The position numbers and the translations under genes are program-made. Below the pieces are notes generated by a model. That model was not told the origin of the DNA. It saw only the letters and a program-made list of their open reading frames with translations, and searched no databases. A stretch of DNA of 23,146 bases. Origin: a virus. The stretch covers positions 1 to 23,146 of the IMG/VR virus record IMGVR_UViG_3300025941_000099; one strand, 5' to 3'. The stretch's first letter is position 1; the number at the start of each line of letters is the position of its first letter. This document shows positions 3,105-17,327 of this stretch, in pieces.

Positions 3105-3350
3105 TCAGGCGGCCCGCTGAACGGCCTCTCTTACCGTTTGCGGACGCGTCGGCTGATCGATCTTTATTCCGTACTTCTTGCGGACGAGCGACGCGAGTTT
3201 GGCGTTGTGCTTTCCGTAATAAAAGAGATCTTTAAGCATGGTGCGCAGACTCTCGAAGGTCGCGCCGTATTCGTCTTCCAGTTCGCGGGCAATACCGGTG
3301 ACCGTAAGCCCGTTCTTTAGGAGGTGAATTTTGACTTCAAGTGCGTTCAT
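3105..3350 (-). CDS. Ner-like early DNA-binding protein
   Basis: This 81-aa basic protein is the first gene of the leftward operon. The start at 3350 (MNALEVKIHLLKNG) is preferred: it has GGAAG upstream and lies about 44 nt from the predicted transcription start. The order VKIHLLKNGLTVTGIARELE, then LVRKKYGIKIDQPTRP resembles Ner/Nlp-type regulators of Mu-like phages. Those pair an early helix VKxxLxKxGxTxxxIAR with a late (K/L)G(I/V) segment. The middle (FESLRTMLKDLFYYGKHNAKLA) is longer than in Mu Ner. In that family the protein damps the early and repressor promoters. Its position facing the repressor gene supports a similar role. Confidence 0.6.
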   Translation of the reverse strand: MNALEVKIHLLKNGLTVTGIARELEDEYGATFESLRTMLKDLFYYGKHNAKLASLVRKKYGIKIDQPTRPQTVREAVQRAA

Positions 3351-3359
3351 AGCTATTCT
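3331..3359 (+). promoter_or_regulatory. Rightward sigma70-type promoter for the repressor operon
   Basis: The -35 box TTGACT (3331-3336), a 17-bp spacer and the -10 box TATTCT (3354-3359) predict a start near 3366, upstream of the repressor. The promoter overlaps the start codon of the divergent Ner-like gene, so the two directions are likely to interfere. Confidence 0.55.
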
Positions 3360-3389
3360 TCCAAGTACTCCAGTTGGGATTCCATCTGG

Positions 3390-3453
3390 AAGTAAACCCA
3401 AAAGTAAACCATCACTTGACTATTGTCAAGCAGAAAGTAAAGTGACGCTTGAC
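3390..3453. promoter_or_regulatory. Operator region of the lysogeny switch
   Basis: CTTGAC-TATT-GTCAAG (3415-3430) is a perfect inverted repeat over the leftward -35 box. AAGTAAA-N6-CTTGAC occurs twice with a 33-bp period (3402-3420 and 3435-3453), about three helical turns. The second copy covers the repressor start codon. A further AAGTAAA lies at 3390-3396. This layout suggests cooperative repressor binding that shuts the early promoter and adjusts the repressor's own synthesis. Confidence 0.55.
3401..3429 (-). promoter_or_regulatory. Leftward early promoter
   Basis: On the minus strand a consensus -35 box TTGACA (3429-3424), a 17-bp spacer and a -10-like TACTTT (3406-3401) predict a start near 3394, about 44 nt before the Ner-like ATG. 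The -35 box lies inside a perfect inverted repeat, as expected for a repressed early promoter. Confidence 0.6.
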
Positions 3454-3996
3454 GCGGCAAAGATTTTTGAGCGAATACTGAAATCTCTCGGTGCAAAGAA
3501 TGCACCCGAAGCAGCCCGAAAACTGGGCATTTCCAAGCAAGCAGTCTACGATTGGCAGAAAAACCCGCCCGGCCTCGACAATCTCATAAAAATCGCCGAG
3601 TCAACCAATACTTCACTGGACTGGTTATTGATAGGCCGTGAGGAACCGACAAGAAGTCAGGTCTTCGATCCGATTCTTAATAGGGATGCCTTAACTGAAA
3701 TGATCAGAGAGGTTGTTCGATCGGAGATCGCCCAAAATGTTCAGGATCTAGGTTCCATAGATGAATTTGATGTTGCAACGGCGATACAAAAATACGATAA
3801 TCCTGGCACAGTATTAACCGAGTGGTATAAACACGACGGCATTGCAGTCCCCGCCCTCACCTCAATGGCATTTTCCGGTTGGGCGAAAATGTCGGTAGAA
3901 CAAAAAAACAAGGAGATTGTAGCTGCCCGCGGTATCCTCGACCGGCAGCGAAAACGCAGAGCCCATGTATCTCCCAAAGACACTAAGCGTTCTTAG
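3442..3996 (+). CDS. CI-like phage repressor (HTH, no LexA-type peptidase)
   Basis: This is a 184-aa protein. The only plausible in-frame start downstream of the promoter is GTG at 3442, and its ribosome site is weak. Residues 3-63 form an XRE/CI-type helix-turn-helix: ILKSLGAKNAPEAARKLGISKQAVYDWQK, then LDNLIKIAESTNTSLDWLLIG, which is the Bac_CI_repr pattern. The C-terminal part is helical and charged. It has no Ser/Lys S24 peptidase motif, so RecA-driven self-cleavage is unlikely. The ImmA/IrrE protease gene overlaps its end by 32 nt, so repressor removal by that protease is expected. It would bind the repeats at 3402-3453. Confidence 0.8.
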   Translation: MTLDAAKIFERILKSLGAKNAPEAARKLGISKQAVYDWQKNPPGLDNLIKIAESTNTSLDWLLIGREEPTRSQVFDPILNRDALTEMIREVVRSEIAQNVQDLGSIDEFDVATAIQKYDNPGTVLTEWYKHDGIAVPALTSMAFSGWAKMSVEQKNKEIVAARGILDRQRKRRAHVSPKDTKRS

Positions 3997-4363
3997 AAAA
4001 TTCAGCAGAGCTCCCCTCACCGGCCCCGATTTTGTGGAGCTCTGTAATCACAATCACATTGAGCTGATCCTGTCGTCGGAAGTCGACCGTGGCTTCTATT
4101 ACCACATCGACGGCAAGCACACGATCGTGTTGTCGACAAGGCTGAAACCGCGAGAGCGGAGTCTGGTCGGATGGCACGAGTTTGCTCATTTCCTGCAGAA
4201 CTTTTACAGGCGAGAGACAGTTGCGGCCTTCTCTGGCGTAGAGCCGGACGCCGCCAGCGAGAAGCTCGCGGACGTATTCGCAATGATCGCCACGCGTCCG
4301 GACCGGATCAGGATCACGCGGGGACTGGATTTTATAGACATGATCATGAGAGGTGAAAAATGA
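3965..4363 (+). CDS. ImmA/IrrE-family zinc metallopeptidase
   Basis: This is a 132-aa protein with the zinc-peptidase motif HEFAH (residues 71-75, in GWHEFAHFLQ). Downstream, EKLADVFAMIAT (residues 99-110) supplies the third ligand region typical of ImmA/IrrE proteins. The preceding strand HTIVLSTRLKPRERSLVGWHEFAH matches the family order (active-site helix after an N-terminal beta sheet). In ICEBs1 and many phages such an enzyme cleaves the adjacent repressor to trigger induction. Here the gene overlaps the repressor gene, which strongly supports that pairing. The protein is close to the minimal family size. Confidence 0.85.
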   Translation: MYLPKTLSVLRKFSRAPLTGPDFVELCNHNHIELILSSEVDRGFYYHIDGKHTIVLSTRLKPRERSLVGWHEFAHFLQNFYRRETVAAFSGVEPDAASEKLADVFAMIATRPDRIRITRGLDFIDMIMRGEK

Positions 4364-4863
4364 AGAGAATCCTATGTCTCGTTGTTTTCGTCCTTGCACT
4401 CTCGGCAGTGATCTCAGCCCAGCAAGTTGCAGTCATTACTGAGAAAGCAAATCTTCGCGGTACACCTAACAGTAGCGGAAAGGTTGTTACTGAGGTTTCG
4501 CAGGGGCAGCTTTTTGACCTGATAAAACAGGTAGGAGGTTGGTTTTTGGTTCAGACGCCCGATTATGTGGGATGGCTTCACGGCAGCACCATCAAGCTAG
4601 TCGGAGCCGAGCAGACCATCAATGCGGCCGTCGAGCCGCCAGCTGCGCCCGCTTACACTCCGCCTCCTGCTCCGGCCTACCAGGCCCCGGTTCCAACTCC
4701 AGCTCCTATTCGTGACCCGATATACCCGAAACCCGCGACGGTTTACACACCGTCAACTACTGCGACCCGATCGGGCGGATATATTCGCGGTCCTCGGGGT
4801 GGTTGTTACTACTACAGCGCCAGCGGCCGGAAGGTGTACGTCGATCGGAGCCTGTGTAATTAG
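4360..4863 (+). CDS. Secreted SH3b-domain protein with C-terminal GPRGGCYYY motif
   Basis: This is a 167-aa protein. A signal peptide occupies residues 1-20 (cleavage near ISA-QQ). A bacterial SH3 domain lies at about 22-80 (ITEKANLRGTPNSSGKVV, then GGWFLVQ and GWLHGS). A Pro/Ala/Tyr-rich linker at 92-132 leads to the tail GPRGGCYYYSASGRKVYVDRSLC (positions 144-166). That tail is one I associate with secreted proteins of acidobacteria. The start overlaps the metalloprotease stop (ATGA) with GAGGTG upstream, so it is in the lysogeny operon. It probably acts at the cell wall or outer surface of the lysogen as a conversion gene; the ligand is unknown. Confidence 0.75.
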   Translation: MKRILCLVVFVLALSAVISAQQVAVITEKANLRGTPNSSGKVVTEVSQGQLFDLIKQVGGWFLVQTPDYVGWLHGSTIKLVGAEQTINAAVEPPAAPAYTPPPAPAYQAPVPTPAPIRDPIYPKPATVYTPSTTATRSGGYIRGPRGGCYYYSASGRKVYVDRSLCN

Positions 4864-4869
4864 CGAGTT

Positions 4870-5490
4870 ATGAAAGGCATTTTGTTTTTTATAATTTTGG
4901 CGGCTTCAGTCGCTTGTTTTGGCCAGGGCGATCGTGACCTGCGAATAATGAACACAGACCTTGCGTCAGAGAAGGTGTGTGGATCTCCCGAATGGGCCGT
5001 TAAGGAGAAGATGTCGGCGACGGTCGCCAAGCGAAGCTTTGCAGACGACGAACTGACACTTACGGGCGTCGTTCTGAAAAACGATCAGGATCAGCGGATG
5101 TTCATTAACGTTGATACCGAATTTCTAAAGGACACCGTCTTAATGGGTGACCTTGCAGACTACCTGATAGTTGGGAAGAAGATCGACGCGACTCTGATTC
5201 GTTGCAGCCACATTTATTATCTCGCTAAGTTAAGTCCGGCTCCGGATGTTAAAAATAGAATTGCAGGACTTACCCTGGCTAGATTCAACGCGCTGAAGAA
5301 AGGCATGACCTACGACGAGGTGATCGCAATACTGGGCAAACCAGGTGAACTCACCAGCACGGCGGAAAACGCCGCTCACAAGACGCAGATGTATATCTGG
5401 AAAGTTCCGAAAAGCCCGATCGGGGCAAATATGAATGCCCTGTTTACGGACGGGAAATTGGTGAGTAAGGCCCAGGCGGGCTTGAAATGA
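4870..5490 (+). CDS. Secreted protein with DUF3862 / SmpA-like C-terminal domain
   Basis: This is a 206-aa protein with a signal peptide (residues 1-19, MKGILFFIILAASVACFGQ). The central part, about 60-125, is a small beta domain (LTLTGVVLKNDQDQRMFINV ... KKIDATLIRC). The C-terminal 75 residues (LARFNALKKGMTYDEVIAILG ... MYIWKVP ... MNALFTDGKLVSKAQAGLK) match the DUF3862 pattern, a relative of the BamE/SmpA fold. It starts 6 nt after the SH3b gene, so the two are probably co-expressed as envelope proteins of the lysogen. A Cys at 16 (SVACFG) lies in the signal region, so lipoprotein anchoring is possible but the lipobox is imperfect. Confidence 0.7.
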   Translation: MKGILFFIILAASVACFGQGDRDLRIMNTDLASEKVCGSPEWAVKEKMSATVAKRSFADDELTLTGVVLKNDQDQRMFINVDTEFLKDTVLMGDLADYLIVGKKIDATLIRCSHIYYLAKLSPAPDVKNRIAGLTLARFNALKKGMTYDEVIAILGKPGELTSTAENAAHKTQMYIWKVPKSPIGANMNALFTDGKLVSKAQAGLK

Positions 5491-5649
5491 CAAAAAGAAC
5501 TACGTTTTTGCGACATTGAAACCCGTTTCGGGCATCCAAATTGCATTAGAAAAATTCGCTGTTCTGATTTGACTATGGAGCGTATGATAAATAAGGATAT
5601 GTCGGACCTCACCAAATTCATGGCAGCCCCTTACGTATGCGGAGGCCTT

Positions 5650-5844
5650 ATGACGAAAGACGAAGTCAATCGTGTACCGGAACGCGAATCCGACGAATCT
5701 CGCGAGATCGAGGCGAGGCTTAAGAGAATCCGTGAACGTTATGACGGTGATTTTGGAGCCTTCTTTCGAGATGCTCAGCAGTCTGTTAGAAAGCAATATC
5801 AACCTGATGAGGAGTGTGCAATCGACGGTTTAGCCCGCACGTGA
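5650..5844 (+). CDS. Small charged protein next to the ClpP-like gene
   Basis: This is a 64-aa, highly charged helical protein (MTKDEVNRVPERESDESREIEARLKRIRERYDGDF, broken here at residue 35). The start at 5650 is chosen for its GGAGG 4 nt upstream; a longer form from 5575 or 5570 is possible. It ends in GTGA, coupled to the ClpP-like gene. The family is unknown. A role as adaptor, inhibitor or substrate of the protease is suggested only by the coupling. Confidence 0.55.
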   Translation: MTKDEVNRVPERESDESREIEARLKRIRERYDGDFGAFFRDAQQSVRKQYQPDEECAIDGLART

Positions 5845-7007
5845 TTGTTCCCGATCCTAAATATCGCCCAGATTTTGGCCGTTCCATTTATGTCGATGGT
5901 ACGATCGACGCTTCGATGGTGTCTCGGCTGACTCCTCAAATAATTAAATTACAGCAAGAATCCCGCGAGCCGATTACTGTGGTTATCAACAGTAACGGCG
6001 GGTCAGTCGCATCCCTGGTAACCTTAAAACATCTGTTGAAAGCTCCATCTCAGGATCTGGGAGAGGGGTGTCGACTGATCACCGTAGTGCCGACTTTTGC
6101 CGCAAGTGCTGCCGCAGATTTGTTGTCAGCTGGCGATTATGCAGTGGCCTATCCAAAGAGTAACGTGCTATATCACGGAACGCGACTCAGCGACAGTGAA
6201 CTCACCGCCGAGCGCTCATCATATTTAGCACAGTTGCTCCGCCTTACCTTAGAAGGCACTGCAATGGATCTTGCTCGCGACGTGGGCTTTCGCTTTTTCT
6301 TCAGATTCATCGCTTCACGGTCCCAGTTTTCGAACATCAGGGCTTCACTTAAAAAGCCGGCACTGAACGATCTTAGCTGTTTTCTCGAATACATTCGCCC
6401 AAAACTGTCGAGAACAGCCAGCGAAATCCTCACGATAGCCGAAGGACGTTATAATCGGTATGCTGAGGTTCTCGACTTCGTCAGTAAGAAGCTGAGGCGC
6501 ATCAAGACGAGTAAAACGGAACTAGAGCTGGACGGTATTCGGCTAAAGGCGATCGTCGATTTTGAAATCAAAGAGAACAGCTCGGCTCCCGGTTGGTCCT
6601 TACAGTTTCAAGGAGTGCACAAGGTAACGGAAGATTTTCTCTTATATCACGAATACCGAAATGTTACTTCAAGTCGCCGCTTTAAGGGCTGGTGCTTAGC
6701 TTATGGTCGGTTCCTTGTGAGCGACGATGAGGCAAACCAATTGGATTCAATTATCGATCATGATGAGAAGGTAGAAAAATGGACCGAGCGCGTTCGGGAT
6801 GATATTCAACCTATTTGGTCTTTCTTTGTGGCCCTATGCTTTACCTTGCAGCGGGGGGAAAACGATGCCTTCACGGCTCAGGATGCCTACTGGCTTGGAC
6901 TGATTGATGAGGTCTTAGGCGAAGAAGAGTGTCCACCCGTCCGCCTAATATATGAAAATAAACCTGATCCGCCTGCAGCGCTTCCGGCCGCGGGAAGTGA
7001 GAGTTAA
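5841..7007 (+). CDS. ClpP/SppA-like serine protease with large internal insertion
   Basis: This is a 388-aa protein if it starts at GTG 5841, which overlaps the upstream stop as GTGA; GTG 5814 adds nine residues. It aligns by eye with ClpP in two separated parts. N-terminal: a strand IYVDGTID, the oxyanion loop INSNGGSV, the nucleophile elbow FAAS89AAADLLSAGD, and VLYH112GTR. C-terminal: GEND342AFTAQDAYWLGLIDEV. The Ser-His-Asp triad is therefore complete. However, His and Asp are 230 residues apart, against 49 in E. coli ClpP, because of a mainly helical insertion of about 180 residues. It has no signal peptide, so it is cytoplasmic. Its place in the lysogeny region, not beside the capsid genes, argues against a head-maturation protease. 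Confidence 0.7.
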   Translation: MIVPDPKYRPDFGRSIYVDGTIDASMVSRLTPQIIKLQQESREPITVVINSNGGSVASLVTLKHLLKAPSQDLGEGCRLITVVPTFAASAAADLLSAGDYAVAYPKSNVLYHGTRLSDSELTAERSSYLAQLLRLTLEGTAMDLARDVGFRFFFRFIASRSQFSNIRASLKKPALNDLSCFLEYIRPKLSRTASEILTIAEGRYNRYAEVLDFVSKKLRRIKTSKTELELDGIRLKAIVDFEIKENSSAPGWSLQFQGVHKVTEDFLLYHEYRNVTSSRRFKGWCLAYGRFLVSDDEANQLDSIIDHDEKVEKWTERVRDDIQPIWSFFVALCFTLQRGENDAFTAQDAYWLGLIDEVLGEEECPPVRLIYENKPDPPAALPAAGSES

Positions 7008-7054
7008 GTGGGTTGCAGTGGGCTGCTTTCTCAATCTCCGACTCGAAAAAGACA

Positions 7055-7086
7055 AAAAGGCGTCGGGGTTCATTACGACGCCTTTT
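7055..7086. terminator. Bidirectional rho-independent terminator
   Basis: An 11-bp perfect stem (AAAAGGCGTCG / CGACGCCTTTT) with a 10-nt loop gives a T-tract in both directions. It separates the rightward lysogeny operon from the leftward gene ending at 7169. Confidence 0.85.
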
Positions 7087-7153
7087 CTTGCAAAAAATCG
7101 AAAAACCGATAATTTGGAGATATCGATGTTTCGAAGGCAATAATACGGATATT

Positions 7154-7168
7154 TTTGACTGAGTCAAA
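7154..7168. promoter_or_regulatory. 15-bp palindrome TTTGACT-G-AGTCAAA
   Basis: This perfect dyad lies just past the stop of the leftward HTH gene. Its half-site TTGAC/GTCAA is the same as in the switch inverted repeat at 3415-3430, but with a 3-nt instead of a 4-nt spacer. It is a possible extra repressor site; the match is short. Confidence 0.35.
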
Positions 7169-7429
7169 TCACGCCGCGAGCTTTTCCGGCTGCCAGCCGG
7201 CCCACTTCCAGAACGAATCTTCATAGACCATCCAGCCGCTAGGACCGGGATCCTCGCCGACGGTCTCAAACTCTCCAGCTTCGCACATACGAATCAGCGT
7301 CTGTCGTGACGGACACGGCACGACAATGCGGTATTTTTTGATCAAGCGCTCGACCTCGGAGAGCTTCATACGGGTGCGCGGAGAGAAGCCGAACGGCAGA
7401 TCCTGTTGTACGTTTCTGGTCGCAATCAT
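7169..7429 (-). CDS. Small HTH/excisionase-like protein
   Basis: This is an 86-aa protein from ATG 7429; a GTG at 7441 would add four residues. Its core reads LSEVERLIKKYRIVVPCPSRQTLIRMCEAGEFETVG, then GWMVYEDSFWKWAGWQPEK. The arrangement of an HTH with (S/T)RxTLxRMxxxGEFE, followed by a Trp-rich 'w..y.dsf..W' wing, is like MerR/AlpA/excisionase-type small binders. It stands alone, leftward, between a bidirectional terminator and the first 82-bp repeat, which covers its start. It could be an excisionase or a regulator of the adjacent late region. No integrase lies nearby to support the first option. Confidence 0.6.
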   Translation of the reverse strand: MIATRNVQQDLPFGFSPRTRMKLSEVERLIKKYRIVVPCPSRQTLIRMCEAGEFETVGEDPGPSGWMVYEDSFWKWAGWQPEKLAA

Positions 7430-7509
7430 TCCATTTACCACAAATCAAATAAAGTCACACGAAGCTTGCCAAGTGATATTTCCTGAGCGGTGAACGTTGC
7501 CTATTCTCG
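7428..7509. repeat. 82-bp duplicated element, copy 1 (candidate late-control site)
   Basis: This block aligns without gaps to 20080-20161. By eye, 45 of the first 55 positions are identical, and after a variable stretch both end in CTA(T/A)TCTCG. Shared cores include ATTCCATTTA, CGAAGCTT and CAAGTG-N-TATTTC. It lies between the leftward HTH gene and the rightward Gam/lysis block. On the minus strand it also contains a weak promoter (TTGGCA-17-TTTGAT), so it could serve the HTH gene instead. Confidence 0.65.
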
Positions 7510-7571
7510 AAAACGTCGGCGGACGAAGCTGTTCAGAAAAAGGGCTGACTGTAATTTTCCGTCGCTAATAA

Positions 7572-7614
7572 GGGTCAGAAGGTGAAAAGCTTGGCAGCCG
7601 AAATCTTCTGACCC
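7572..7614. promoter_or_regulatory. Long-loop inverted repeat in the leader of the Gam-like gene
   Basis: GGGTCAGAAG (7572-7581) is mirrored by CTTCTGACCC (7605-7614) around a 23-nt loop. It sits 46 nt before the start at 7661, in an otherwise gene-free 230-bp leader. No T-run follows, so it is more likely a regulator site or RNA structure than a terminator. Confidence 0.45.
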
Positions 7615-7660
7615 AGAACCTACATCAAGACCATGAAAAACGTCAAGGGAAATCAGTGAG

Positions 7661-8125
7661 ATGGCGAAGCTAACGCAGGCGGAAGTAAGGGCAAAGGCCG
7701 ATGAGTACGCGGCCCTGAGCAAAAAGATCGAGAAGTCCGAAGCGGCACGCGACGCGGAGATGCAGCCGTTCGTTGAAAAGCATCAGCGAGCGATCAAGGG
7801 AATCGTCGATCATCACGAGCCGCGGATCCAGAAGATGCGTGATCAGCGAGACGCTCTTCAGACTGAGGTTTTAGGGTGGTTGAACGGGGTGGGAAAACCT
7901 CTGGTCCTTGAAGGTGAGAACGCGACCGCCGTCGTCGAATCGAAGCCGGGCAGCCGAGTGATCGACGTCCAGAAGTTTTTGAAAAAGGCGAAGGACAAAG
8001 GGTCCGCGATGTGGGAATGCCTGAGCGTTGCCGTTGCTAAAGCCGAGAAGCTGCTCGGCGAAAAAACGATCAGTGAGATCTCGAGGAAAGATTCGAAGCT
8101 GGTTGCGAGCTTGAAACTGAAATGA
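7661..8125 (+). CDS. Mu Gam-like host-nuclease inhibitor (tentative)
   Basis: This is a 154-aa protein. A long N-terminal helical region, about residues 5-70, runs from AEVRAKADEYAALSKKIEKSE to MRDQRDALQTEVLGWL. A beta unit (KPLVLEGENATAVVESKPGSRVIDV) follows, then a helical end (EKLLGEKTISEISRKDSKLVASLKL). This order, coiled coil then 'GWL' then a small beta-alpha unit, is that of Mu Gam, a dimer related to Ku that protects DNA ends from RecBCD. Mu gam is early, whereas here the gene leads the lysis block, which is unusual. The stop overlaps the lysin start (ATGA). The alternative is a generic coiled-coil phage protein. Confidence 0.5.
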   Translation: MAKLTQAEVRAKADEYAALSKKIEKSEAARDAEMQPFVEKHQRAIKGIVDHHEPRIQKMRDQRDALQTEVLGWLNGVGKPLVLEGENATAVVESKPGSRVIDVQKFLKKAKDKGSAMWECLSVAVAKAEKLLGEKTISEISRKDSKLVASLKLK

Positions 8126-9213
8126 GTTTTTCGGAGCGAGACAAACTGAAAGCACTTGCGATCGTGCATGTCTTCGAAACGTCGAAACCCTTCGGGGATT
8201 ATTCGGCCCTCGCCGTGCTTAATGACGGTGCTGGGATCTCGTACGGCATCAACCAGTTTACGCACAAGTCAGGGAGCCTCGAGCTCGTGCTGAATGAGTT
8301 CGTCCTGCTCGGCGGTGAGCTGCCGCAGGTCCTGAAAACTGTCCTACCTGACATCCAGAATCCGAGGTCCTCAAACATACTTCTGCTGTCGAAAAACTCG
8401 GCGGTCAAGGCGGCGCTCAAAAAGCTCGGCGGAGATCCGCTGATGCGGCAGGCACAGAACGAAGTTGCGTTTGATCATTTTCTCAGGCCGGCGATCACTG
8501 CGTGTGACGGCTCCGCCTTCAAGGATCCGCTCAGCCTGGCGGTGATCTACGACTCGATCAACCACGGCTCGTGGGAAAAGGTCCGCGACCGCGTGTCTGC
8601 CGGCGGTGGTGAAAGAGGATGGATCGAGCGTTATGTACGAACTCGAGATGCGTGGCTAAACTCGGTGCCGCGGCTTAGATCTACACGATATCGAACCCAG
8701 TTCTTCCTGAATGAGATCCGGCACGGCAACTGGGAGCTTAAGCTGCCGCTTTACGTTCACGGCTGCGAGCTGACAGAGGACATCTTTCCGCCAATGACAA
8801 GCCCGGCGGTTGAGCAGTCAATAGTGATCATGCCCGTAACTACCGCAGAAGCCCCAGAGTCGGCCGCTACTTCTTCTCCCGCCAGTCAGGCCCAAACGCC
8901 GGGCACGTCGGAATCGGTTCTTGGTGCCATCACAAGGGCCGGACAGTTTGTCGAGGCCGCAGGCAAACCGATCGATGCGGCCGCACAGGTGACGGCCTCG
9001 GTCACGCAACGCAAAGACAGCGTCAAGTCGATGTGGACAGCTCTGCTGCATTCCGTTTGGCAGGTGATCTGGGCGGTGCTCGGATTTTTTATCGGCCTGC
9101 CAAAAGAGGTTTGGTTCGTCGTTGCAATTATCGTCGCGGCCTTCGGACTGTATTACCTTTACCGGCAAATCACATTGGGTAAGATCCGCGAACAGGCGGC
9201 ACTTCAAAAATGA
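8122..9213 (+). CDS. GH46 chitosanase-like endolysin with C-terminal membrane anchor
   Basis: This is a 363-aa protein. Residues 8-45 (LKALAIVHVFE19TSKPFGDYSALAVLND35GAGISYG) match the catalytic entry of GH46 chitosanases: FE, a Tyr-containing turn, then DGxGIxxG, with Glu and Asp as acid and base. The downstream helices (AVIYDSINHGSW ... RGWIERYVRTRDAWL) also fit GH46 or lysozyme-like folds. A Pro/Ala/Thr-rich linker, about 235-290, leads to two hydrophobic helices (313-327 and 332-352), so the enzyme is tethered to the inner membrane. Position ahead of holin- and spanin-like genes makes it the probable peptidoglycan lysin. There is no N-terminal signal. Confidence 0.7.
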   Translation: MSFSERDKLKALAIVHVFETSKPFGDYSALAVLNDGAGISYGINQFTHKSGSLELVLNEFVLLGGELPQVLKTVLPDIQNPRSSNILLLSKNSAVKAALKKLGGDPLMRQAQNEVAFDHFLRPAITACDGSAFKDPLSLAVIYDSINHGSWEKVRDRVSAGGGERGWIERYVRTRDAWLNSVPRLRSTRYRTQFFLNEIRHGNWELKLPLYVHGCELTEDIFPPMTSPAVEQSIVIMPVTTAEAPESAATSSPASQAQTPGTSESVLGAITRAGQFVEAAGKPIDAAAQVTASVTQRKDSVKSMWTALLHSVWQVIWAVLGFFIGLPKEVWFVVAIIVAAFGLYYLYRQITLGKIREQAALQK

Positions 9214-9416
9214 CAATGCAGGATTCAAAGAACGGCCTTCTGGCCATATTCAGCGGAATACCCGCATATATCGCGGCGGTCGATGCTCAGACGATAACGA
9301 TAATTTCGGCGATCGTGCTGCCGGTCTTTTTCTTCTGCGTGGGAAAGGCGGTAGATGTCGCCGTGCAGATCTACTTGAGGCGTCGCAGAGCGGACAAAGA
9401 TCATGACGATCAATGA
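9210..9416 (+). CDS. Holin-like small membrane protein
   Basis: This is a 68-aa protein with one long hydrophobic segment (ITIISAIVLPVFFFCVGKAVDVAV, broken at residue 51) and a basic/charged tail RRRRADKDHDDQ. The short first hydrophobic patch (LLAIFSGIPAYIAAV) could make a second span. The start overlaps the lysin stop as ATGA, and its end overlaps the next gene. Size, topology and cassette position fit a holin or antiholin. Sequence alone cannot prove pore formation. Confidence 0.6.
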   Translation: MTMQDSKNGLLAIFSGIPAYIAAVDAQTITIISAIVLPVFFFCVGKAVDVAVQIYLRRRRADKDHDDQ

Positions 9417-9837
9417 GGGCATAAAAGATCTGTTCACGGATCTCACGTCAAAGCAAATTATCACGGTGATCGCGATCGCCGTCTTCATCGTTTGCGTCGC
9501 GATCTCGGCCGGATCGGCGTTGTCGTTTTTAAGAATTCGCGCACTCGAAAAAGATGTCGCCGCTGCCAAAGAGCGAGCGGACGCCTTTGAAACAAAGGCG
9601 GACCAAAAAGAGAAAGAAGCGGCGAAGTACCAGGAGAAGATCACGTATCTCGAATCAAACCTGGTCGAAATCCAAAACCTAGCGAGGAAACAAGACGATG
9701 AAATTACCAGGCTTAATTTTACTGTCGCTGGCTCTCGTACTGATGTTGACCGTGCCCGTAGCGTTCGGTCAATCGCCAGCACCGCCGACGAGCTCTGTGA
9801 TCGCCTCAAAGAAACAGGCCACCCGTGCGACCCCTAG
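9403..9837 (+). CDS. Rz-like inner-membrane spanin
   Basis: This is a 144-aa protein. An N-terminal membrane helix (residues 19-44, IITVIAIAVFIVCVAISAGSAL) is followed by a long coiled coil, about 48-105 (ALEKDVAAAKERADAFETKADQKEKEAAKYQEKI). It ends with RSIASTADELCDRLKETGHPC. Membrane helix plus periplasmic coiled coil is the layout of i-spanins such as lambda Rz. Its last 140 nt overlap the next gene out of frame, as in Rz/Rz1 pairs. Confidence 0.65.
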   Translation: MTINEGIKDLFTDLTSKQIITVIAIAVFIVCVAISAGSALSFLRIRALEKDVAAAKERADAFETKADQKEKEAAKYQEKITYLESNLVEIQNLARKQDDEITRLNFTVAGSRTDVDRARSVRSIASTADELCDRLKETGHPCDP

Positions 9838-10192
9838 CCCGACACCGGAGATCCAAAAGATCATCGACGCGTGCGCGGCGACGGCAGACGATCTGAAAGC
9901 GACAAGGACCTACGCGTCGAATCTCGAATCCGAGAACAAGCTGCTTAGCGAGAGGCTCGAAACGGAGAAGAAAACTACGGCGATCCTGACGGAGCTGAAT
10001 AAAACCCGGGAGGCAGAGAACGCTGCTTTAAGGGATACGGTCATGGCGAAAAACGAGACCATCGCGGCCAAAGATGCCGTGATCACAGCCCAGGACAAGC
10101 TTGTCGCGAAACTACAGAAAAACAAGAGCTCACCCTGGCAGAGAGCCGCCGACGTCCTTCTCGGCGTCGGCTTGTTTGCACTCCTTAGGTAG
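9698..10192 (+). CDS. Secreted coiled-coil protein, overlapping spanin partner
   Basis: This is a 164-aa protein. A signal peptide (residues 1-24, MKLPGLILLSLALVLMLTVPVAFG) is followed by a Pro/Ser/Thr linker (SPAPPTSSVIASKKQATRATPSPTP). A long coiled coil, about 55-145, and a C-terminal hydrophobic stretch (VLLGVGLFALL) complete it. The start has AGGA 9 nt upstream inside the Rz-like gene, and 140 nt are shared in another frame. The signal plus Pro-rich region recalls Rz1. There is no lipobox Cys after the signal, and the protein is much larger than Rz1. An outer-membrane or periplasmic spanin partner is likely but atypical. Confidence 0.6.
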   Translation: MKLPGLILLSLALVLMLTVPVAFGQSPAPPTSSVIASKKQATRATPSPTPEIQKIIDACAATADDLKATRTYASNLESENKLLSERLETEKKTTAILTELNKTREAENAALRDTVMAKNETIAAKDAVITAQDKLVAKLQKNKSSPWQRAADVLLGVGLFALLR

Positions 10193-10745
10193 GCGTCTTA
10201 TCTAGGATTTCTCTTCGGTGAACGGAAGTTAGCTTTCGGGCTTCTAATGCTATTTTCATAAAATGGCCTGTTACGTCTGATACTTTGAATTCCTGACTGA
10301 ATTTCATCATTGGAAACGTTCTTCCCATGTTCACTAAAAGAGCGTCGTGTTCATGAATGTTGTCATCGAGGCGGATTTGAATTCGAGAATAGGTAACCAT
10401 GAGATCGTTTATAAGGCGATTCATTAACTCGAATTCCGGATCCGTAACTTTCCCTTTGTTTCGGTGAACAACTTGGCGAACATCCGCCAATTGCTGGCCA
10501 ATAGAAAGAAAGGAACTTAAATCAAGCGTGATGGATTCAAGCCATTCTTTTCTAACCGTTAGCCTGGCGTTGGACTTCGCAAGGCTTTCCGCCGATCGAA
10601 TCTGATTTCTGGCGATTCGGGAAGCAACAATCGGACCGACGACTGTAGCGATAAGTGCGACGAGTGCTGAAATGATCGCGGTGATTGTTTGCCAGCTTAG
10701 ACCACCGTCATCGCCGACAGAAATAGTGACGCGAGGATCGAACAT
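10185..10745 (-). CDS. Membrane protein moron of unknown function
   Basis: This is a 186-aa protein with one membrane helix (residues 19-45, TITAIISALVALIATVVGPIVAS) and a helical cytoplasmic part containing no motif I recognise. The start has AGGAGG 8 nt upstream. It is transcribed against the surrounding late genes from its own promoter (10772-10800), has more AT than its neighbours, and overlaps the spanin gene's end by 8 nt. These are moron traits. A superinfection-exclusion or other lysogen-protective role is plausible by position and topology only. Confidence 0.65.
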   Translation of the reverse strand: MFDPRVTISVGDDGGLSWQTITAIISALVALIATVVGPIVASRIARNQIRSAESLAKSNARLTVRKEWLESITLDLSSFLSIGQQLADVRQVVHRNKGKVTDPEFELMNRLINDLMVTYSRIQIRLDDNIHEHDALLVNMGRTFPMMKFSQEFKVSDVTGHFMKIALEARKLTSVHRREILDKTPT

Positions 10746-10771
10746 GTGTGGGGCCTCCTAAGATACTGCAA

Positions 10772-10800
10772 AAAGTAGAGGAACCCGTTGATTTTGTCAA
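10772..10800 (-). promoter_or_regulatory. Leftward promoter of the membrane moron
   Basis: On the minus strand TTGACA (10800-10795), a 17-bp spacer and TACTTT (10777-10772) predict a start near 10765. Box sequences and spacing are the same as in the early promoter at 3401-3429. A TTGAT-TTT-GTCAA dyad (10788-10800) overlaps the -35 box. Confidence 0.55.
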
Positions 10801-10814
10801 AGACCTAGACTCTC

Positions 10815-11384
10815 ATGTCACAAACATCGACCAGGACAAACCCCGAGACGATCAAAGACGCTTTCGCTTTGTATTTGAAATACAACGGCGAGCGTTTTGA
10901 TCTGATCGAGGAAGAGATGCACCGGCTCGGCTGGGAAGGGTTTCGGAAGCAGATCCTGTTTAGCCGCGGAAAGGGTGAGAACTATCGTGACGGATGGATC
11001 GATCGCTTTGGCTGGAAGAATGCTCTCAAGGTCCATCTCGCCCAGGCCGCGACGATCGCGGCGACGTCGGCCGAATCTCTCCTGGCTGAAAACGAGTCGA
11101 TCAGAAAGGCCGCGTACATGGAGATCCAGGAGCAAGGCGTGCGAGCGAACAAGGATCTCGTCTACCAGCACAATCTCTATACCCAGAACTGCATCAAGAT
11201 CCTCGACAAGCTCGCCGAGGCCCGCGACAACTACGCGAACTTCACATTTTTCCTAAATCACCTGCTTCGAGCCGCGACGCAGATCTCGCCGGCGTTAGCG
11301 AAAGAGCTGTGCGATGCCGAGGAGCCGTTGATCGAATGGGCGGAAAAGGAATTCGTGACCGAGGATGAAAAGCCTGAAGAGTAA
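10815..11384 (+). CDS. Candidate small terminase subunit
   Basis: This is a 189-aa helical protein. Residues 9-60 (PETIKDAFALYLKYNGERFDLIEEEMHRLGWEGFRKQIL) form a possible helix-turn-helix. The rest is helical with an acidic C-terminal tail (EWAEKEFVTEDEKPEE). It opens the packaging block, one gene before TerL, the normal place for TerS, and the size fits. I see no ribosome site before the ATG. I do not recognise a specific TerS family, so the call rests on position and shape. Confidence 0.5.
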   Translation: MSQTSTRTNPETIKDAFALYLKYNGERFDLIEEEMHRLGWEGFRKQILFSRGKGENYRDGWIDRFGWKNALKVHLAQAATIAATSAESLLAENESIRKAAYMEIQEQGVRANKDLVYQHNLYTQNCIKILDKLAEARDNYANFTFFLNHLLRAATQISPALAKELCDAEEPLIEWAEKEFVTEDEKPEE

Positions 11385-11387
11385 GCC

Positions 11388-12473
11388 ATGCGGACCGTAA
11401 ACATTAAGTTGAAGGAGCAGGAGGCAGGTATACGCAAGGTGCGTTTCCTGCCCGATGTGACGCCCGGCGACGATGATCTGATCCTTAACGAGTATTACTC
11501 GGTCATGACCGATGCCAACGGTCTCGCCAGCATCGATCTGCCGACAAAAGCGACGGGAACTGTTCGGTACAAGTGCGAGATCCCTAATCAGATCGGCGGA
11601 GACAACGCAGGTTCTTTTTATTTGGCAGCCGGCGGGGCGGTCGATCTCGAGGACCTGCTTGCGACCGGCGTTCCGGCAACAGAGACCGTGAAGGCTGCGA
11701 TCGATGACGCGATCGCGAATGCTGCCAGCGGCGGAGCGGTGTTTCAAGGCCTATACCCAAATGCGACGTTCCCTGCGGCATCCACGCTCAACTCAGCGAA
11801 TGGGCACAACGATCTCTACACCGTTCCGGCCGGCAGAAAAGCTCTGGTCATTGATTACATAAAGACCAACTCGACGGGTGGAGCGATCAATAGCTTCCCA
11901 GAGATAAAGATCGGCTCGACCTATTATCAGCTGGGGAACAGCCTCAGCGAAGTGTCGGGAGGTATCGGTCACAATTACGGAATGACTTCCGGTAACTTTT
12001 CCCAGTCCATCGTCCTGAACGCAGGCGAGAAGTTTTCGGTAAATTGCGACGCGCCAGGCCTGAGTGTCTGGGTGAATATCATCGAGTTTGACGCGGCCAG
12101 CCCATTGGGCAGGGCTGACATTCAAACATGGGTCAATGGTGCGAATACGCTGTTTACGGTACCTGTAGGAAAGACTGTGTCTTTTGGAGCGACTACGCTT
12201 CAAGCTAATTCCAATAATCCCGGCACGATCATAACCTCTTACGTTTACCGTAATACCAGCGGTTCCAGCCGCACCATCAGCACTGTCAATATCGTCCCAT
12301 CAGGTGGGAGCCCGGCTGCGAATAATCAATTCGTCGGAAGCAATGTGATCTTTAACGGCCAGGGATTCAACAAATATTTCCACGGGAACATGAGACCCGG
12401 AGATTTTATCAACGTTAACAGCGACTCAAACGCCGCCGGACAGTACGCGTGGATCAACTACGTACTGAGGTGA
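11388..12473 (+). CDS. Beta-rich structural protein with two related C-terminal domains
   Basis: This is a 361-aa protein. Residues 1-95 form a beta-type N-domain (VNIKLKEQEAGIRKVRFLPDV). A linker at 96-125 is followed by two similar beta-sandwich-like domains: LYTVPAGRK at 143 to WVNIIEF at 228, and LFTVPVGKT at 255 to WINYVLR at 361. Gly/Asn/Ser-rich loops suggest a virion surface protein such as a head fibre or receptor binder. It lies between the TerS candidate and TerL, only 3 nt and 1 nt from them, an odd place for a structural gene. No enzymatic motif is seen. Confidence 0.6.
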   Translation: MRTVNIKLKEQEAGIRKVRFLPDVTPGDDDLILNEYYSVMTDANGLASIDLPTKATGTVRYKCEIPNQIGGDNAGSFYLAAGGAVDLEDLLATGVPATETVKAAIDDAIANAASGGAVFQGLYPNATFPAASTLNSANGHNDLYTVPAGRKALVIDYIKTNSTGGAINSFPEIKIGSTYYQLGNSLSEVSGGIGHNYGMTSGNFSQSIVLNAGEKFSVNCDAPGLSVWVNIIEFDAASPLGRADIQTWVNGANTLFTVPVGKTVSFGATTLQANSNNPGTIITSYVYRNTSGSSRTISTVNIVPSGGSPAANNQFVGSNVIFNGQGFNKYFHGNMRPGDFINVNSDSNAAGQYAWINYVLR

Positions 12474-12474
12474 T

Positions 12475-13878
12475 ATGGCTCAGGCAACAAAATACGATCA
12501 TCGCAAAAAGATCAAGTCCGACATGGACCGGGCACGCCGGCAGCTCGGGCTTAATCAGCTTGTGTTTCCCGATTGGCTGCCGAGAGTAACGCCGCAGTGG
12601 CAATGGGACTGGCCGCACCAGATCTATCTCTACAACGCTCTGCAGCGGGTGACTGACGGGCTTTGCAAACGGCTGATGATCTTCCTGCCGCCGCGGCATT
12701 CGAAATCGGAAACGGTCACCGTTCGTTATGCTGCCTGGCGGCTTGAAAACGATCCGAAAGCCAACATCATCCTCGGGTGCTATAACCAGAAACTCGCGAA
12801 CCGCTTTTCACGAAAGACCTACCGCATCGCAAAAAACCGCGTCGCGATGGCCAAGGACCGGAAGGCGGTCGAGGAATGGGAAACCGCGATCGGCGGAGGG
12901 CTGCGTGCCGTCGGCGTTGGCGGTGGTATCACCGGGTTCGGCGGAGATCTGATCCTGATCGACGACCCCGTCAAGAACCGCGAGGAGGCCGAATCGGAAG
13001 TTTATCGCGATAAATGCTGGGACTGGTTCAATGACGATCTTTACACGCGTCTCGAACCGAACGGAGCGATGGTCCTAACGATGACTCGGTGGCACGATGA
13101 CGATCTTGCCGGGCGGCTGCTGAAGGAGGTCGAAGACGGAGGCGAGAAATGGGAGGTTGTAAAGCTGCCGGCGATCGCCGAGCCGGACGATCCGTTAAAC
13201 CGTCGTGAGGGCGAGGCTCTGTGCCCGGCACGTTACGACATTGACGCACTGGAAGCCCGAAAGAAAAAGCTCGGGCCGTATTCGTTCGCAGCTCTCTATC
13301 AGCAGCGTCCGGTCCCGATCGAGGGATCGCTATTCAAACGCGAGTGGTTTGAAAAGAACTTCGTTGAGCGAGCTCCTGACGGACTGCGTTGGTGCCGCGG
13401 ATACGATCTGGCGGTCTCGCAAAAGACCTCAGCCGATTACACAGCGAGCTTTCGATGTGCGTTCGACAAGGAAGGAAATCTCTTCATCGCCGATGGCTTT
13501 CGTAAACGGATCGAGTATCCCGAGCAAAAGCGTTATGTCGTCGGCCGGATGACCAACGAACAGAAAACCGAGCACGGCGTTGAAAAGGCTCTACATGGCG
13601 AGGCTCTTGTTCAGGACCTTCGTCGTGTGCAATCGATCCGTGGCGTGCCGCTGAAGGCGATCAAGGTCGATGTCGATAAATTTACGCGGGCCCTGGGCTG
13701 GGCGAACCTCGCCGAGGAACGAAAGGTTTACCTGGTCCGCGGCGGATGGAACGCCGATTTTATCGACGAGGTATGCAGGTTCACGGGAAAGGGCGACGCT
13801 CATGATGACCAGGTCGATGCGGTCAGTGTGGCGGTCGGAATGTTGTCGAAGAGACGAGCGAAGCTGCACGCATTCTGA
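12475..13878 (+). CDS. terL: Terminase large subunit (ATPase/nuclease)
   Basis: This is a 467-aa protein. The ATPase has a Walker A variant LPPRHSKSE (residues 71-79), where the usual Gly before Lys is Ser, and a Walker B DLILIDDP (158-165). A coupling-motif-like TMTRWHDDD (202-210) follows. The nuclease domain shows GYD311LAVSQKTSADYTAS and GDAHDDQVDAVSVAVG (440-454), the acidic residues expected of an RNase-H-like fold. It packages DNA into proheads through the portal encoded next. The ribosome site GAGGTGAT lies right at the start. Length and motif order are standard for this family. Confidence 0.95.
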   Translation: MAQATKYDHRKKIKSDMDRARRQLGLNQLVFPDWLPRVTPQWQWDWPHQIYLYNALQRVTDGLCKRLMIFLPPRHSKSETVTVRYAAWRLENDPKANIILGCYNQKLANRFSRKTYRIAKNRVAMAKDRKAVEEWETAIGGGLRAVGVGGGITGFGGDLILIDDPVKNREEAESEVYRDKCWDWFNDDLYTRLEPNGAMVLTMTRWHDDDLAGRLLKEVEDGGEKWEVVKLPAIAEPDDPLNRREGEALCPARYDIDALEARKKKLGPYSFAALYQQRPVPIEGSLFKREWFEKNFVERAPDGLRWCRGYDLAVSQKTSADYTASFRCAFDKEGNLFIADGFRKRIEYPEQKRYVVGRMTNEQKTEHGVEKALHGEALVQDLRRVQSIRGVPLKAIKVDVDKFTRALGWANLAEERKVYLVRGGWNADFIDEVCRFTGKGDAHDDQVDAVSVAVGMLSKRRAKLHAF

Positions 13879-13990: not shown

Positions 13991-15394
13991 ATGAGCGATC
14001 TAACAAAGGCGGTCAAGGCACTCAAAGACAATTCCTGGTGCTATCAAAAACCGGAAGACTATTACGACGGGAAGCACAAGCTGTCGTTTGCCACGGAAAA
14101 ATTCAAGAATGCGTTCGGAGAGCTCTTTCGGGCGTTCGCGTTGAACGTGTGTCCCGCCGTGGTCGACGCGGTAGCAGATAAGCTGGTCGTTGAAAACTTT
14201 GGAGTGGACGAGGGTGACGCGAAGTCTGCCGAAGATGCCTGGTCGATCTGGCAGGCGAACCGGATGGGGCAGAGATCAGGCCAGGTACATAAGGAAGTAT
14301 TGCGTGCCGGAGATGCCTATGTGATCGTCTGGCCTGACGTCACTTCGGGCAAAGCGACGATCTATCCGAACAGGGCTGCGACCTGCACGGTCTTTTACGA
14401 TGAGGAGACGCCTGGCAAGATCCTCTGGGCCGCGAAATACTGGACGCATCTCGACGGCCGTGTGCGGCTGAATCTTTATTACGCAAATCAGATCGAAAAA
14501 TACATTGCGAAGAAGGCGGCACTTGACGACCTCTACACTCAGAAAAAAGAGCAGACGATCGAGAACCGGAACCGATACTCCGTGTTGCCCGAGGCTAAGG
14601 AGTTTCTTCCATACACCGAGGACGGACCGGAAACGATCAAGAACCCGTACGGCGTCGTGCCGGTCTTTCATTTTGCAAACAATGCCGACGTGGGGTCCTT
14701 TGGCATGTCAGAGCTAAAGCACGTCGTGCCGGTGCAGGACGCTTTGAATAAATCGGTCCTCGACATGCTGGTCGCGATGGAGTTTGCGTCGTACCGGCAG
14801 CGATGGGCTTCGGGTATCGAGATCGAGATCGATGAGACCACTGGCAAGCCAATCCCGCCGTTTACCGCCGGGGTCGAACGGCTATGGGTAACCGAGAGCC
14901 CGGAAGCGAAATTCGGAGATTTTGAGGCGACGGACCTGGAGCAATTCCTAAAGGTGAAGGACGGCATGCGTATAGACATCGCGACGGTGTCGGGCACGCC
15001 GCTGCATTATTTTCTGCTGACCGGGGCCGCCTTTCCGCAATCCGGTATATCGATCGAAAAACTAGAGTCGCGTTTTCTCAACAAAGTAAGGGACCGGATG
15101 GAAGCATTTGGCAATGTATGGGAGGACGTAATGCGATTCGCACTGCGCATCGAGAACAAGGGCAAAGACGCCCAGCTCCACACGAACTGGGCGAACCCGG
15201 CACCGCTTTCCCAAGGCGAGCAGCTCGACAATCTGCTCAAGAAAGAGCAGATGGGAGTTTCGGAAGAGCAGCTTTGGAAAGAAGCCGGATATGGCGAGAA
15301 GGACATCAAGACGATGCAGGAGGCAAATGCTGCGAAAGCCGAGGAAGAGGCGAAAAGGTTCAACGCCGGTGACCTGGGAAACAACCTTCCGTAA
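13991..15394 (+). CDS. Portal protein, SPP1 gp6 family
   Basis: This is a 467-aa protein with the order typical of SPP1 gp6-type portals. An N-terminal helical part (ALNVCPAVVDAVADKLVVENFGV, broken at residue 72) comes first. A beta wing follows (VLRAGDAYVIVWPDVTSG, ATCTVFYDEETPGKILWAAKYW), then the stem/crown segment GVVPVFHFANN ... GMSELKHVVPVQDALNKSVLDMLV. A C-terminal helical part (FPQSGISIEKLESRFLNKV) is last. It forms the dodecameric DNA gate at one vertex and docks TerL. The MuF gene follows after 3 nt, as usual for this portal type. There is no ribosome site upstream of its ATG. Confidence 0.9.
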   Translation: MSDLTKAVKALKDNSWCYQKPEDYYDGKHKLSFATEKFKNAFGELFRAFALNVCPAVVDAVADKLVVENFGVDEGDAKSAEDAWSIWQANRMGQRSGQVHKEVLRAGDAYVIVWPDVTSGKATIYPNRAATCTVFYDEETPGKILWAAKYWTHLDGRVRLNLYYANQIEKYIAKKAALDDLYTQKKEQTIENRNRYSVLPEAKEFLPYTEDGPETIKNPYGVVPVFHFANNADVGSFGMSELKHVVPVQDALNKSVLDMLVAMEFASYRQRWASGIEIEIDETTGKPIPPFTAGVERLWVTESPEAKFGDFEATDLEQFLKVKDGMRIDIATVSGTPLHYFLLTGAAFPQSGISIEKLESRFLNKVRDRMEAFGNVWEDVMRFALRIENKGKDAQLHTNWANPAPLSQGEQLDNLLKKEQMGVSEEQLWKEAGYGEKDIKTMQEANAAKAEEEAKRFNAGDLGNNLP

Positions 15395-15397
15395 TGA

Positions 15398-17059
15398 ATG
15401 TCAGTTCTCGACAACACCCTCAAGAAGCACCGCAAGCGGATTATCGATCGCGAAGAGCACGCTTTCCGCGAGATGCTGCAGGCATATAAAAACGTCGAGC
15501 GTGAACTCAAGCGATCGATCGCCGAGCTGCAGAAGAAAGTCAGTGATGCAAAGGCAGCCGGCCAAGAGATCTCACCCGCGTGGCTTCAGCAACAGGATCG
15601 TCTCAAAACTCTTGTAACCCAAGTCAAAAATCAAATAACCCGCTTCGGCGGCACTGCCTCGCGAATTACCGCCCGTGAGCAGCGGGCCGCGATCGGCATT
15701 GCGATCGACCAGACGAAGGATATGATCTCGGCGATCGCTGGAGATCCTTTCGCCGCAGGTTCGCTGCTCAACCCGACCGCGGTCGAAAATGCCGTGGGTA
15801 TGATGGGCGACGGCTCGCCGATCCTCGATTATTACGAAAAGAATCTTGCTCCTAAAGTCGCCCAGATGATCCGCCAGGAAGTGATCAAGGCCGCCGCTCT
15901 CGGCACCGATTTCAGAATGATCTCCAACCGCCTGCTGCAAACGGGACAGATCACCCGAACGCGAGCTCTCGCGACTGCCCGCACTGAAGTCAATCGTGTT
16001 CGCCGCGAGACGACACGGCAGATGTACCAGGCGAACTCGGATGTGATCACGGGCTGGGAATGGGTCGCGAGCAAATCGGCAAGGACCTGCCCGGCGTGTC
16101 TCGCTCTTGACGGCCGCGTCTTTGATCTCGACGAAGTTTTCCCTCAGCACGTTAATTGCCGCTGCACGATGATCCCGGTGATCGACGGGATCCAGCGGCC
16201 GCCGCGACAACTCGGATCGGATTGGTTCGATCAGCAGTCCGACGAGATCAAAGAGACGATCATCGGCAAGGATGGCGTGGCGGCGTATAACGAAGGGCTG
16301 GTCGGCCTTAAGGACTTTGTTGGCTGGCGAAACGACAAACGATTCGGAAAATCGGTCTATACGAAACCGCTGAGTCAGGTCCTGCTCGAAAAACCGATCG
16401 GCGAAAAGATCATCAGGACGCCGAAGAATGTTCATGTCGATTTCGAATTTGGAGCGGAAGAGGTCCTGCAGGATCTGCTGGCCAGGGATCTCAGCCACAA
16501 TGAAATCGGCGGCCTGGTAGGTGCTCTCGACGGAGCGAAGATCTCCGTTGACCACAATGATGAAGGCGGACTATTCCTCCACGTAAATCATCCGCTCATT
16601 AGCCAACAGGTCCGGAGCCTCGATCGGGATTTCAGAGGTCGCGTTTTCATGCATAACGAGATCTTCCGGGCATCGCGTACTGCACCGAAGGGTACAGGTC
16701 TCAAATCTTTCGCGACACAGGTCCTTCATGCGGGGAAATTCGGCGTCGAATATATCGATACAGACGCCGTCGGCAATTACAAGACTAGTAAGGATGCGGC
16801 TCGCTGGAATGGTTATTACACCTGGGCGAGATTTGGCTACAACGCTCAACTCGGTCCGAATGATTGGGCGATATTTCCGGAGACTTTCAAGGGTATCCAG
16901 GATCTCAACGAGCTGATGCTGCAAACTAACGGCAAATTCGTCTGGCTTTATAAGGGTACTGGCAGGCCGATGCTGTTCGATTTGGACCGGTCAAGCCGCA
17001 GCCGGAGGATCCTCGAAAAATATTTACAGGAAAAGAACTTTGCTGTAGACTTCGAGTAA
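15398..17059 (+). CDS. MuF/SPP1 gp7 head morphogenesis protein fused to a GNAT-like C-terminal domain
   Basis: This is a 553-aa protein. The N-terminal 150 residues are helical. The MuF core, about 185-265, holds RALATARTEVNRVRRETTR and the metal site C231PAC234 ... H251VNC254RC256. Classic MuF proteins end soon after this. Here about 210 further residues follow, including HNEIFRASRTAPKGTGLKS (positions 419-437), QVLHAGKFGVEYIDTDAVGN, and NGYYTWARFGYNA (471-483). A glycine loop, then a long helix, then an NGYxxWxxxGF-type motif is what I expect of GNAT-fold or related effector domains. MuF proteins can carry polymorphic toxin tails delivered with the virion. The small acidic gene downstream could be its immunity gene. 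Confidence 0.75.
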   Translation: MSVLDNTLKKHRKRIIDREEHAFREMLQAYKNVERELKRSIAELQKKVSDAKAAGQEISPAWLQQQDRLKTLVTQVKNQITRFGGTASRITAREQRAAIGIAIDQTKDMISAIAGDPFAAGSLLNPTAVENAVGMMGDGSPILDYYEKNLAPKVAQMIRQEVIKAAALGTDFRMISNRLLQTGQITRTRALATARTEVNRVRRETTRQMYQANSDVITGWEWVASKSARTCPACLALDGRVFDLDEVFPQHVNCRCTMIPVIDGIQRPPRQLGSDWFDQQSDEIKETIIGKDGVAAYNEGLVGLKDFVGWRNDKRFGKSVYTKPLSQVLLEKPIGEKIIRTPKNVHVDFEFGAEEVLQDLLARDLSHNEIGGLVGALDGAKISVDHNDEGGLFLHVNHPLISQQVRSLDRDFRGRVFMHNEIFRASRTAPKGTGLKSFATQVLHAGKFGVEYIDTDAVGNYKTSKDAARWNGYYTWARFGYNAQLGPNDWAIFPETFKGIQDLNELMLQTNGKFVWLYKGTGRPMLFDLDRSSRSRRILEKYLQEKNFAVDFE

Positions 17060-17061
17060 TT

Positions 17062-17253
17062 ATGGGAATTCCTCTGAGCGATTACGACGAGATCTTAAAT
17101 CGTCCCAGCCGTAAAGCCGGCGGCGATGATGGCCCCGTGTTGATGCGGTCAGACGAGGCTGCCCTGGACAAAGCCTGGTCCGTCGTAGCGGAGGAGGATG
17201 GCGTCGATCAGTTGCCTGATCAGCCGAGTCGCGAAGAGATCAGGAATTCCTAA
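17062..17253 (+). CDS. Small acidic protein downstream of the MuF fusion (candidate immunity or chaperone)
   Basis: This is a 63-aa acidic protein (IPLSDYDEILNRPSRKAGG, then LDKAWSVVAEEDGVDQLPDQ), starting 2 nt after the MuF stop and ending before a strong terminator. No family is recognised. Its coupling, size and charge fit an immunity or chaperone partner of the MuF C-terminal domain. An unrelated small head protein is the alternative. Confidence 0.5.
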   Translation: MGIPLSDYDEILNRPSRKAGGDDGPVLMRSDEAALDKAWSVVAEEDGVDQLPDQPSREEIRNS

Positions 17254-17268
17254 TTCTCCATCCAAAAG

Positions 17269-17310
17269 ACGAAAAAAGAGAGTCAAAAACGGCTCTCTTT
17301 TTCGTTTTTT
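17269..17310 (+). terminator. Rho-independent terminator of the packaging/head block
   Basis: The stem ACGAAAAAAGAGAG / CTCTCTTTTTCGT (one bulged A) closes a 10-nt loop and ends in TTTTTT. It stops rightward transcription before the leftward moron operon. Confidence 0.85.
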
Positions 17311-17327
17311 GCGTTCTTGCCAAATAA

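Follow-up and report, generated by a model that had tools for sequence, protein, structure and literature searches.

A temperate Acidobacteriota phage carries, in a variable slot of its genome, a mobile pair of genes in which a protease of the ClpP fold family with a conserved Ser and His and a large insertion travels together with a small charged partner protein. We consider the chances about even that this pair is a mobile lysogenic-conversion cassette, made of a self-standing, regulated ClpP-fold serine protease and its cognate small partner. ClpP itself is a barrel protease under ATPase control. The window, by which we mean the whole stretch of DNA that was analysed, covers positions 1 to 23,146 (23,146 bases) of the IMG/VR virus record IMGVR_UViG_3300025941_000099, and by its terminase relatives the phage belongs with prophages of Acidobacteriota (L084, L085). 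The pair comprises the following features:

5650-5844, plus strand: gene of the 64-aa charged partner protein, with GGAGG at 5641-5645, four bases 5' of its ATG
5841-7007, plus strand: gene of the 388-aa ClpP-fold (S14-like) serine protease homologue (PF00574, E 5.6e-11; relatives in 13 Acidobacteriota genomes)
6105-6107, plus strand: codon of the catalytic Ser89 (AASAAADLL), invariant in 11 of 11 aligned members
6174-6176, plus strand: codon of the catalytic His112 (HGxR motif), likewise invariant in 11 of 11
6177-6857, plus strand: family-specific region at the ClpP handle position, residues 113-339, kept in every aligned member
6858-6863, plus strand: acidic/Asn pair E340-N341 at the position of the ClpP catalytic Asp, from the 11-member alignment

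Both open reading frames exist and overlap as a preliminary description of this DNA had stated, the GTG that opens the 388 codons of the protease overlapping the stop codon of the 64-codon frame in the sequence GTGA. A GGAGG precedes the small frame but not the protease start, in keeping with translational coupling of the protease to the small gene. Furthermore, the GTG or TTG start codons of three members (the window, G410 and G582) fall into one alignment column, in which the TTG starts of relatives read LIVP..., LIIP... and VIVP..., so that 5841 is a likelier start than 5814.

Membership in the ClpP fold family follows from the match of Pfam CLP_protease PF00574 to residues 14-112 (43.1 bits against a cut-off of 20.2) and from the solved ClpPs in the PDB, which match the profile of the protease family with an E-value of 3e-13. 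Narrower models stay below their cut-offs, with 19 bits against 309 for NCBIfam TIGR00493 and 42 bits against 228 for PRK12553, and the best equivalog- or subfamily-level scores across 11 members are still weak by E-value. A second, weak match between the solved ClpPs and the family profile corresponds to the C-terminal LTAxDA..GLID motif, which indicates that the C-terminus of the protease is ClpP-like too. S89 and H112, which had been assigned to ClpP contexts from the outset, lie within the PF00574 match, and R115 of the HGxR motif is as invariant as they are. The third residue originally named for the triad, D342 (6864-6866), is ruled out as the catalytic acid by the 11-member alignment, its column being absent from nine of the 11 members and occupied by Glu in the closest relative, G821. 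The column of E340, on the other hand, holds E or D in all 11 members, and that of N341 holds Asn in ten and Asp in G821. Both belong to the family motif [E/D]-N-x-L-T-A-x-D-A-[FY]-W-L-G-L-[IV]-D-E-V, whose E (E340 in the window) lies eight residues ahead of the motif Ala in most members, just as the catalytic Asp of ClpP does in the ordinary ClpPs that were checked; the window protease and G821 have one extra residue at the acidic motif. On this alignment, the third triad residue would be E340 or N341, not D342. With a Glu/Asn-like third residue, protease activity is not guaranteed; a Ser-His-Asn triad, with Asn at the third position, is found in Listeria ClpP1 (cited in PMC12900304).

The large insertion between His and acid, also part of the preliminary description, proved to be a property of the whole family: the His and the acidic motif are 213-259 residues apart in every one of the 11 aligned members (228 from His112 to N341 in the window), compared with 48-52 in ordinary ClpPs, and the difference amounts to about 180 extra residues. 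An alignment that included short ClpPs misaligned the C-terminal motif. The existence of a full-length relative, 50% identical and with this same insertion, places the observation far beyond chance. When searched against Pfam and the PDB, the family-specific insertion had no significant relative. In ClpP, the ATPase is contacted by the apical grooves and the N-terminal axial loops, away from the handle, and it is the axial loop that touches ClpX. With the ATPase contact located elsewhere, the place of the insertion lends no support to the earlier proposal that it replaces this contact, as it sits not at the docking face but at the position of the handle, which forms the interface between the heptameric rings and serves the alignment of the triad (PMC9823225, PMC12900304). 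The N-terminus of the protease is ~14 residues shorter than that of solved ClpPs in the PDB profile alignment, where profile position 12 pairs, for most of the full-length chains, with positions 24-33, and the loop for ClpX contact is thus probably absent. An AlphaFold model of the protease alone, from its single sequence, had a pLDDT of 36, too low to interpret.

These features also bear on a different reading, namely an accessory ClpP paralogue that co-assembles with the host ClpP, is served by the host ClpX or ClpC and shifts the targets of the Clp system, the small protein acting as adaptor. Such a paralogue would agree with the clear ClpP core, with the ordinary ClpPs of the host Acidobacteriota genomes (open frames of ~180-310 aa, weak matches) and with the existence of heteromeric ClpP1P2 systems and Ser-His-Asn subunits (PMC12900304). 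However, an insertion at the handle that pairs the rings, the shortened N-terminus, the HG-x-R motif in place of the usual HQ..GG and a horizontal spread without a Clp ATPase are difficult to reconcile with it, and we hold it to be unlikely.

That the 64-aa gene might travel with the protease had been suggested as a check, and it was found directly upstream in eight of the 11 assessable loci. Seven relatives have a short charged frame directly upstream of the protease, with the motif RRIYxxYGxDLxxFxRDV, and a profile built without the 64-aa protein of the window matches that protein with an E-value of 2.1e-5 among 4,988 segments, the next best match standing at 1.0. Likewise, the small protein of G821 is still detected when held out of the profile, with an E-value of 1.5e-14 in the segment set and 7.7e-13 in the whole-genome search. 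Across 26 whole genomes, each genome with a profile match had a single one, located upstream of the protease, and none occurred in the 13 genomes that lack the protease. Plain BLASTP of two of the small proteins gave no match; profile search alone worked. The small gene overlaps the protease gene in the window and is separated from it by 4-10 nt in G410, G582, G515 and G821. For the protein of the window, a single-sequence AlphaFold model (mean pLDDT 67) predicts a two-helix hairpin with helices at 11-30 and 34-49.

The 64-aa partner is not universal, since the integrase-linked members G553 and G555 have a different small upstream frame, the two being mutually related, and in G852 none is evident. 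In G553 (L139, 8746-9039) and G555 (L142, 9488-9781), the order is integrase, a small protein of this other family, with the motif IGQRILAAxLxxQLGI, and then the same protease family, an arrangement that we read as a partner swap. That no antitoxin common to all members is apparent weighs against a toxin-antitoxin-like pair, in which a toxic protease would be restrained by the small protein and freed on infection or upon loss of the cassette. Although a small first gene tightly coupled to a larger second one, a sporadic mobile distribution and defence genes adjacent in two genomes would all suit such a pair, we judge it unlikely.

Upstream and downstream of the pair, the lysogeny region of the phage contains the following features:

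3331-3996, plus strand: CI-type HTH repressor (PF07022, E 7e-10), upstream of the pair and in the same direction
3965-4363, plus strand: ImmA/IrrE-like metallopeptidase (phrog_87, E 7.4e-6; PF06114, E 0.0018, under the cut-off)
4360-4863, plus strand: secreted SH3-domain (SH3_3) protein in the cargo slot of the pair (PF08239, E 7e-9)
4870-5490, plus strand: secreted DUF3862/BLIP-like protein in the same slot (PF12978, E 8e-7; phrog_6148, E 8e-15)
7056-7085, plus strand: terminator-like GC-rich hairpin followed by a U-rich tract (fold -17.8 kcal/mol, z -3.4)
7169-7441, minus strand: conserved gene at the right-hand boundary of the variable slot, 66.7% identical to its homologue in prophage L084

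The placement of the pair in the lysogeny region, as first described, is upheld by this layout: a rightward operon runs from the CI-type repressor through the ImmA-like peptidase, the SH3 protein and the DUF3862/BLIP-like protein to the protease pair as its last member, and the head genes (portal, minor head protein, scaffold and major head protein) lie at 13991-21698. Downstream of the protease, the transcription unit ends at the terminator-like hairpin, and the common orientation suggests that the pair may be expressed together with the repressor. In the syntenic prophage L084, other genes stand between the repressor and the minus-strand homologue of 7169-7441, and L088 is similar; these related phages share the backbone and differ in what the slot contains, which identifies it as a variable cargo slot. 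Besides the protease pair, the slot houses the two secreted proteins at 4360-5490.

Some further observations concern the rest of the window. Minus-strand genes within the late plus-strand module, at 10185-10745 and 17376-19960, encode a membrane-anchored protein without a Pfam family and two secreted proteins, one Cys-rich and the other thioredoxin-like, and look like further cargo between the head genes. A candidate endolysin at 8122-9213 combines a match to glycosyl hydrolase family 46 (chitosanase) with a C-terminal membrane segment, unusual for a phage lysin. The same phage has a second record, L086 (IMGVR 3300009177_000178), which was compared with window positions 15398-18590 and is 99-100% identical up to gpF, with 94% identity in the gpF portion and 49% in the next minus-strand gene, a difference that may reflect local recombination or an allelic swap.

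Given the operon that the protease has in common with the CI-type HTH gene and the ImmA-like gene, it might be thought to control lysogeny, cleaving a repressor or antirepressor alongside the ImmA-like peptidase with the small protein as signal or inhibitor. Moreover, the protease of G410 adjoins an HTH and ImmA/IrrE (capH/capP-like) pair. Most chromosomal relatives, however, lack an adjacent repressor, related phages that share the backbone retain the repressor without the protease, and in G410 the HTH/ImmA pair is accounted for by CBASS; lysogeny control thus appears quite improbable to us.

A displaced capsid (head) maturation protease would be another way to explain a ClpP-like gene in a phage, and the NCBIfam model Clp_rel_HeadMat and PHROG head-maturation models do match the core weakly. 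Yet the family score of 24.2 bits is to be compared with a cut-off of 120, and the gene lies ~7 kb from the portal gene, in the repressor operon and not in the stretch from the portal to the major capsid gene. Portal, minor head, scaffold and major head genes are present in the head module, which does not include this gene. The related phages L084 and L087 share these head genes, the slot of L084 is without the protease, and the relatives are mostly chromosomal. The initial opinion that this is not a capsid maturation protease therefore stands; by location, content of the head module, scores and chromosomal relatives, a head function is excluded, and we attach almost no probability to it.

Whole-genome searches recovered relatives of the protease in 13 Acidobacteriota genomes, with full-length identities to the window protein of 32-50% and with the Ser, the His and the entire insertion in common. 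Nine members are intact (G025, G410, G582, G708, G459, G553, G555, G821 and G852), two (G545 and G515) are truncated by the contig end, and the remaining two (G731 and G863) are fragmentary or decayed. In the tree, the closest relative of the window protease is the chromosomal G821 (support 92/96), and the prophage members G553 and G555 form a separate clade (100/100); the cassette thus seems, from a tree that is weakly resolved, to have been acquired by phages on more than one occasion. Its distribution is sporadic, as within one sampled family it occurs in two of 89 genomes. Searches of IMG/VR and GTDB contigs with exact peptide patterns retrieved only the second record of the same phage, and a corrected codon pattern in IMG/VR matched the same phage alone. 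With the window protein as tblastn query, phage and plasmid collections yielded only ordinary ClpPs at E-values of 0.4 or worse, and with a relative as query there was one ClpP match at 19% coverage and none in phages. The viral matches L144-L156 were rejected as relatives, being ordinary ClpPs of 207-252 aa without the insertion.

Most relatives reside on chromosomes outside any phage, for instance between rpmE and dusB in G025 or beside leuS in G708, and those of G553 and G555 adjoin prophage integrases. In G410, the cassette lies within an island of CBASS and type II R-M genes, and in G852 the protease adjoins a GmrSD-type gene, both being part of an element that also encodes a TraA-like helicase. 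The G410 locus (L135) has, at 6854-13500 and directly downstream of the cassette, capH/capP-like regulators, a CBASS SMODS cyclase with a 4TM effector and type II R-M. Defence-gene neighbourhoods were thus seen at two of ~11 loci with usable flanks, and most contexts are not defence islands. Differing contexts, sporadic occurrence and a variable phage slot together point to a mobile accessory cassette. PADLOC models gave no match for the protease or the small protein. A defence role of the pair is plausible but unproven, and it is our leading guess on the basis of the two neighbourhoods in G410 and G852 and of mobility. More specifically, and as a tentative possibility, the pair may represent a novel defence or exclusion system that stands on its own in Acidobacteriota and in the prophages of these bacteria, in which a new domain in the handle renders the protease free of a Clp ATPase and control falls to a dedicated small helical protein, itself released or modified on infection.

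Several known systems resemble the pair in part. With ClpP (S14; PF00574, TIGR00493), the protease shares the INSxGG core signature, the AASAA nucleophile, the catalytic His and the C-terminal LTAxDAxxxGLID, and it differs in the ~180 extra residues from His to acid, in Glu/Asn for the catalytic Asp, in HGxR instead of HQ..GG, in the shorter N-terminus and in a conserved domain, unrelated to known sequences, where ClpP has the handle by which two heptamers pair. The head maturation proteases of phages that are related to ClpP (NF045542, phrog_94) have in common with it a distant match in the N-terminal half and occurrence in phages, whereas the protease described here lies outside the head module, is neither fused to nor beside a scaffold or capsid gene, has mostly chromosomal relatives and is unique in its insertion. 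Listeria ClpP1 (PMC12900304) also has a third triad residue other than Asp, with Asn at or beside the position, but is no larger than usual and has ClpP2 as its partner, where the present enzyme has a new domain for the handle. Finally, the pair is reminiscent of prophage exclusion and lysogenic-conversion genes such as P22 sieA/sieB (PMC10883804), which are likewise accessory, variable among related phages and expressed by the prophage, as the pair would be; in contrast to these, it encodes a protease instead of a membrane exclusion protein. Our literature searches found no description of a pair of this protease and small partner, and the family seems previously undescribed.

Returning to the mobile lysogenic-conversion cassette, our working model is as follows. 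The cassette would occupy a lysogenic-conversion (moron) slot downstream of the phage repressor and would be made in the lysogen. Its first gene would provide the 64-aa charged helical-hairpin protein, and translation of the second would probably be coupled to it, yielding a ClpP-fold serine protease whose handle may be replaced or expanded by the conserved domain of ~180 extra residues. With its short N-terminal axial loop, the enzyme may work without Clp ATPase docking or with an altered form of it; it would not form the usual handle-to-handle double ring, and the insertion might gate or align the active site instead. The small protein would bind the enzyme and either keep the protease off or switch it on, and the pair would act in the protection of host or prophage (superinfection exclusion or anti-phage defence), not in virion assembly.

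A ClpP-fold enzyme that keeps the Ser-His core, has a new domain in place of the handle and is paired with a small protein dedicated to it presents a testable example of unfoldase-free regulation. Furthermore, the cassette adds an undescribed mobile element to the accessory gene pool of the little-studied phylum Acidobacteriota and of its temperate phages.
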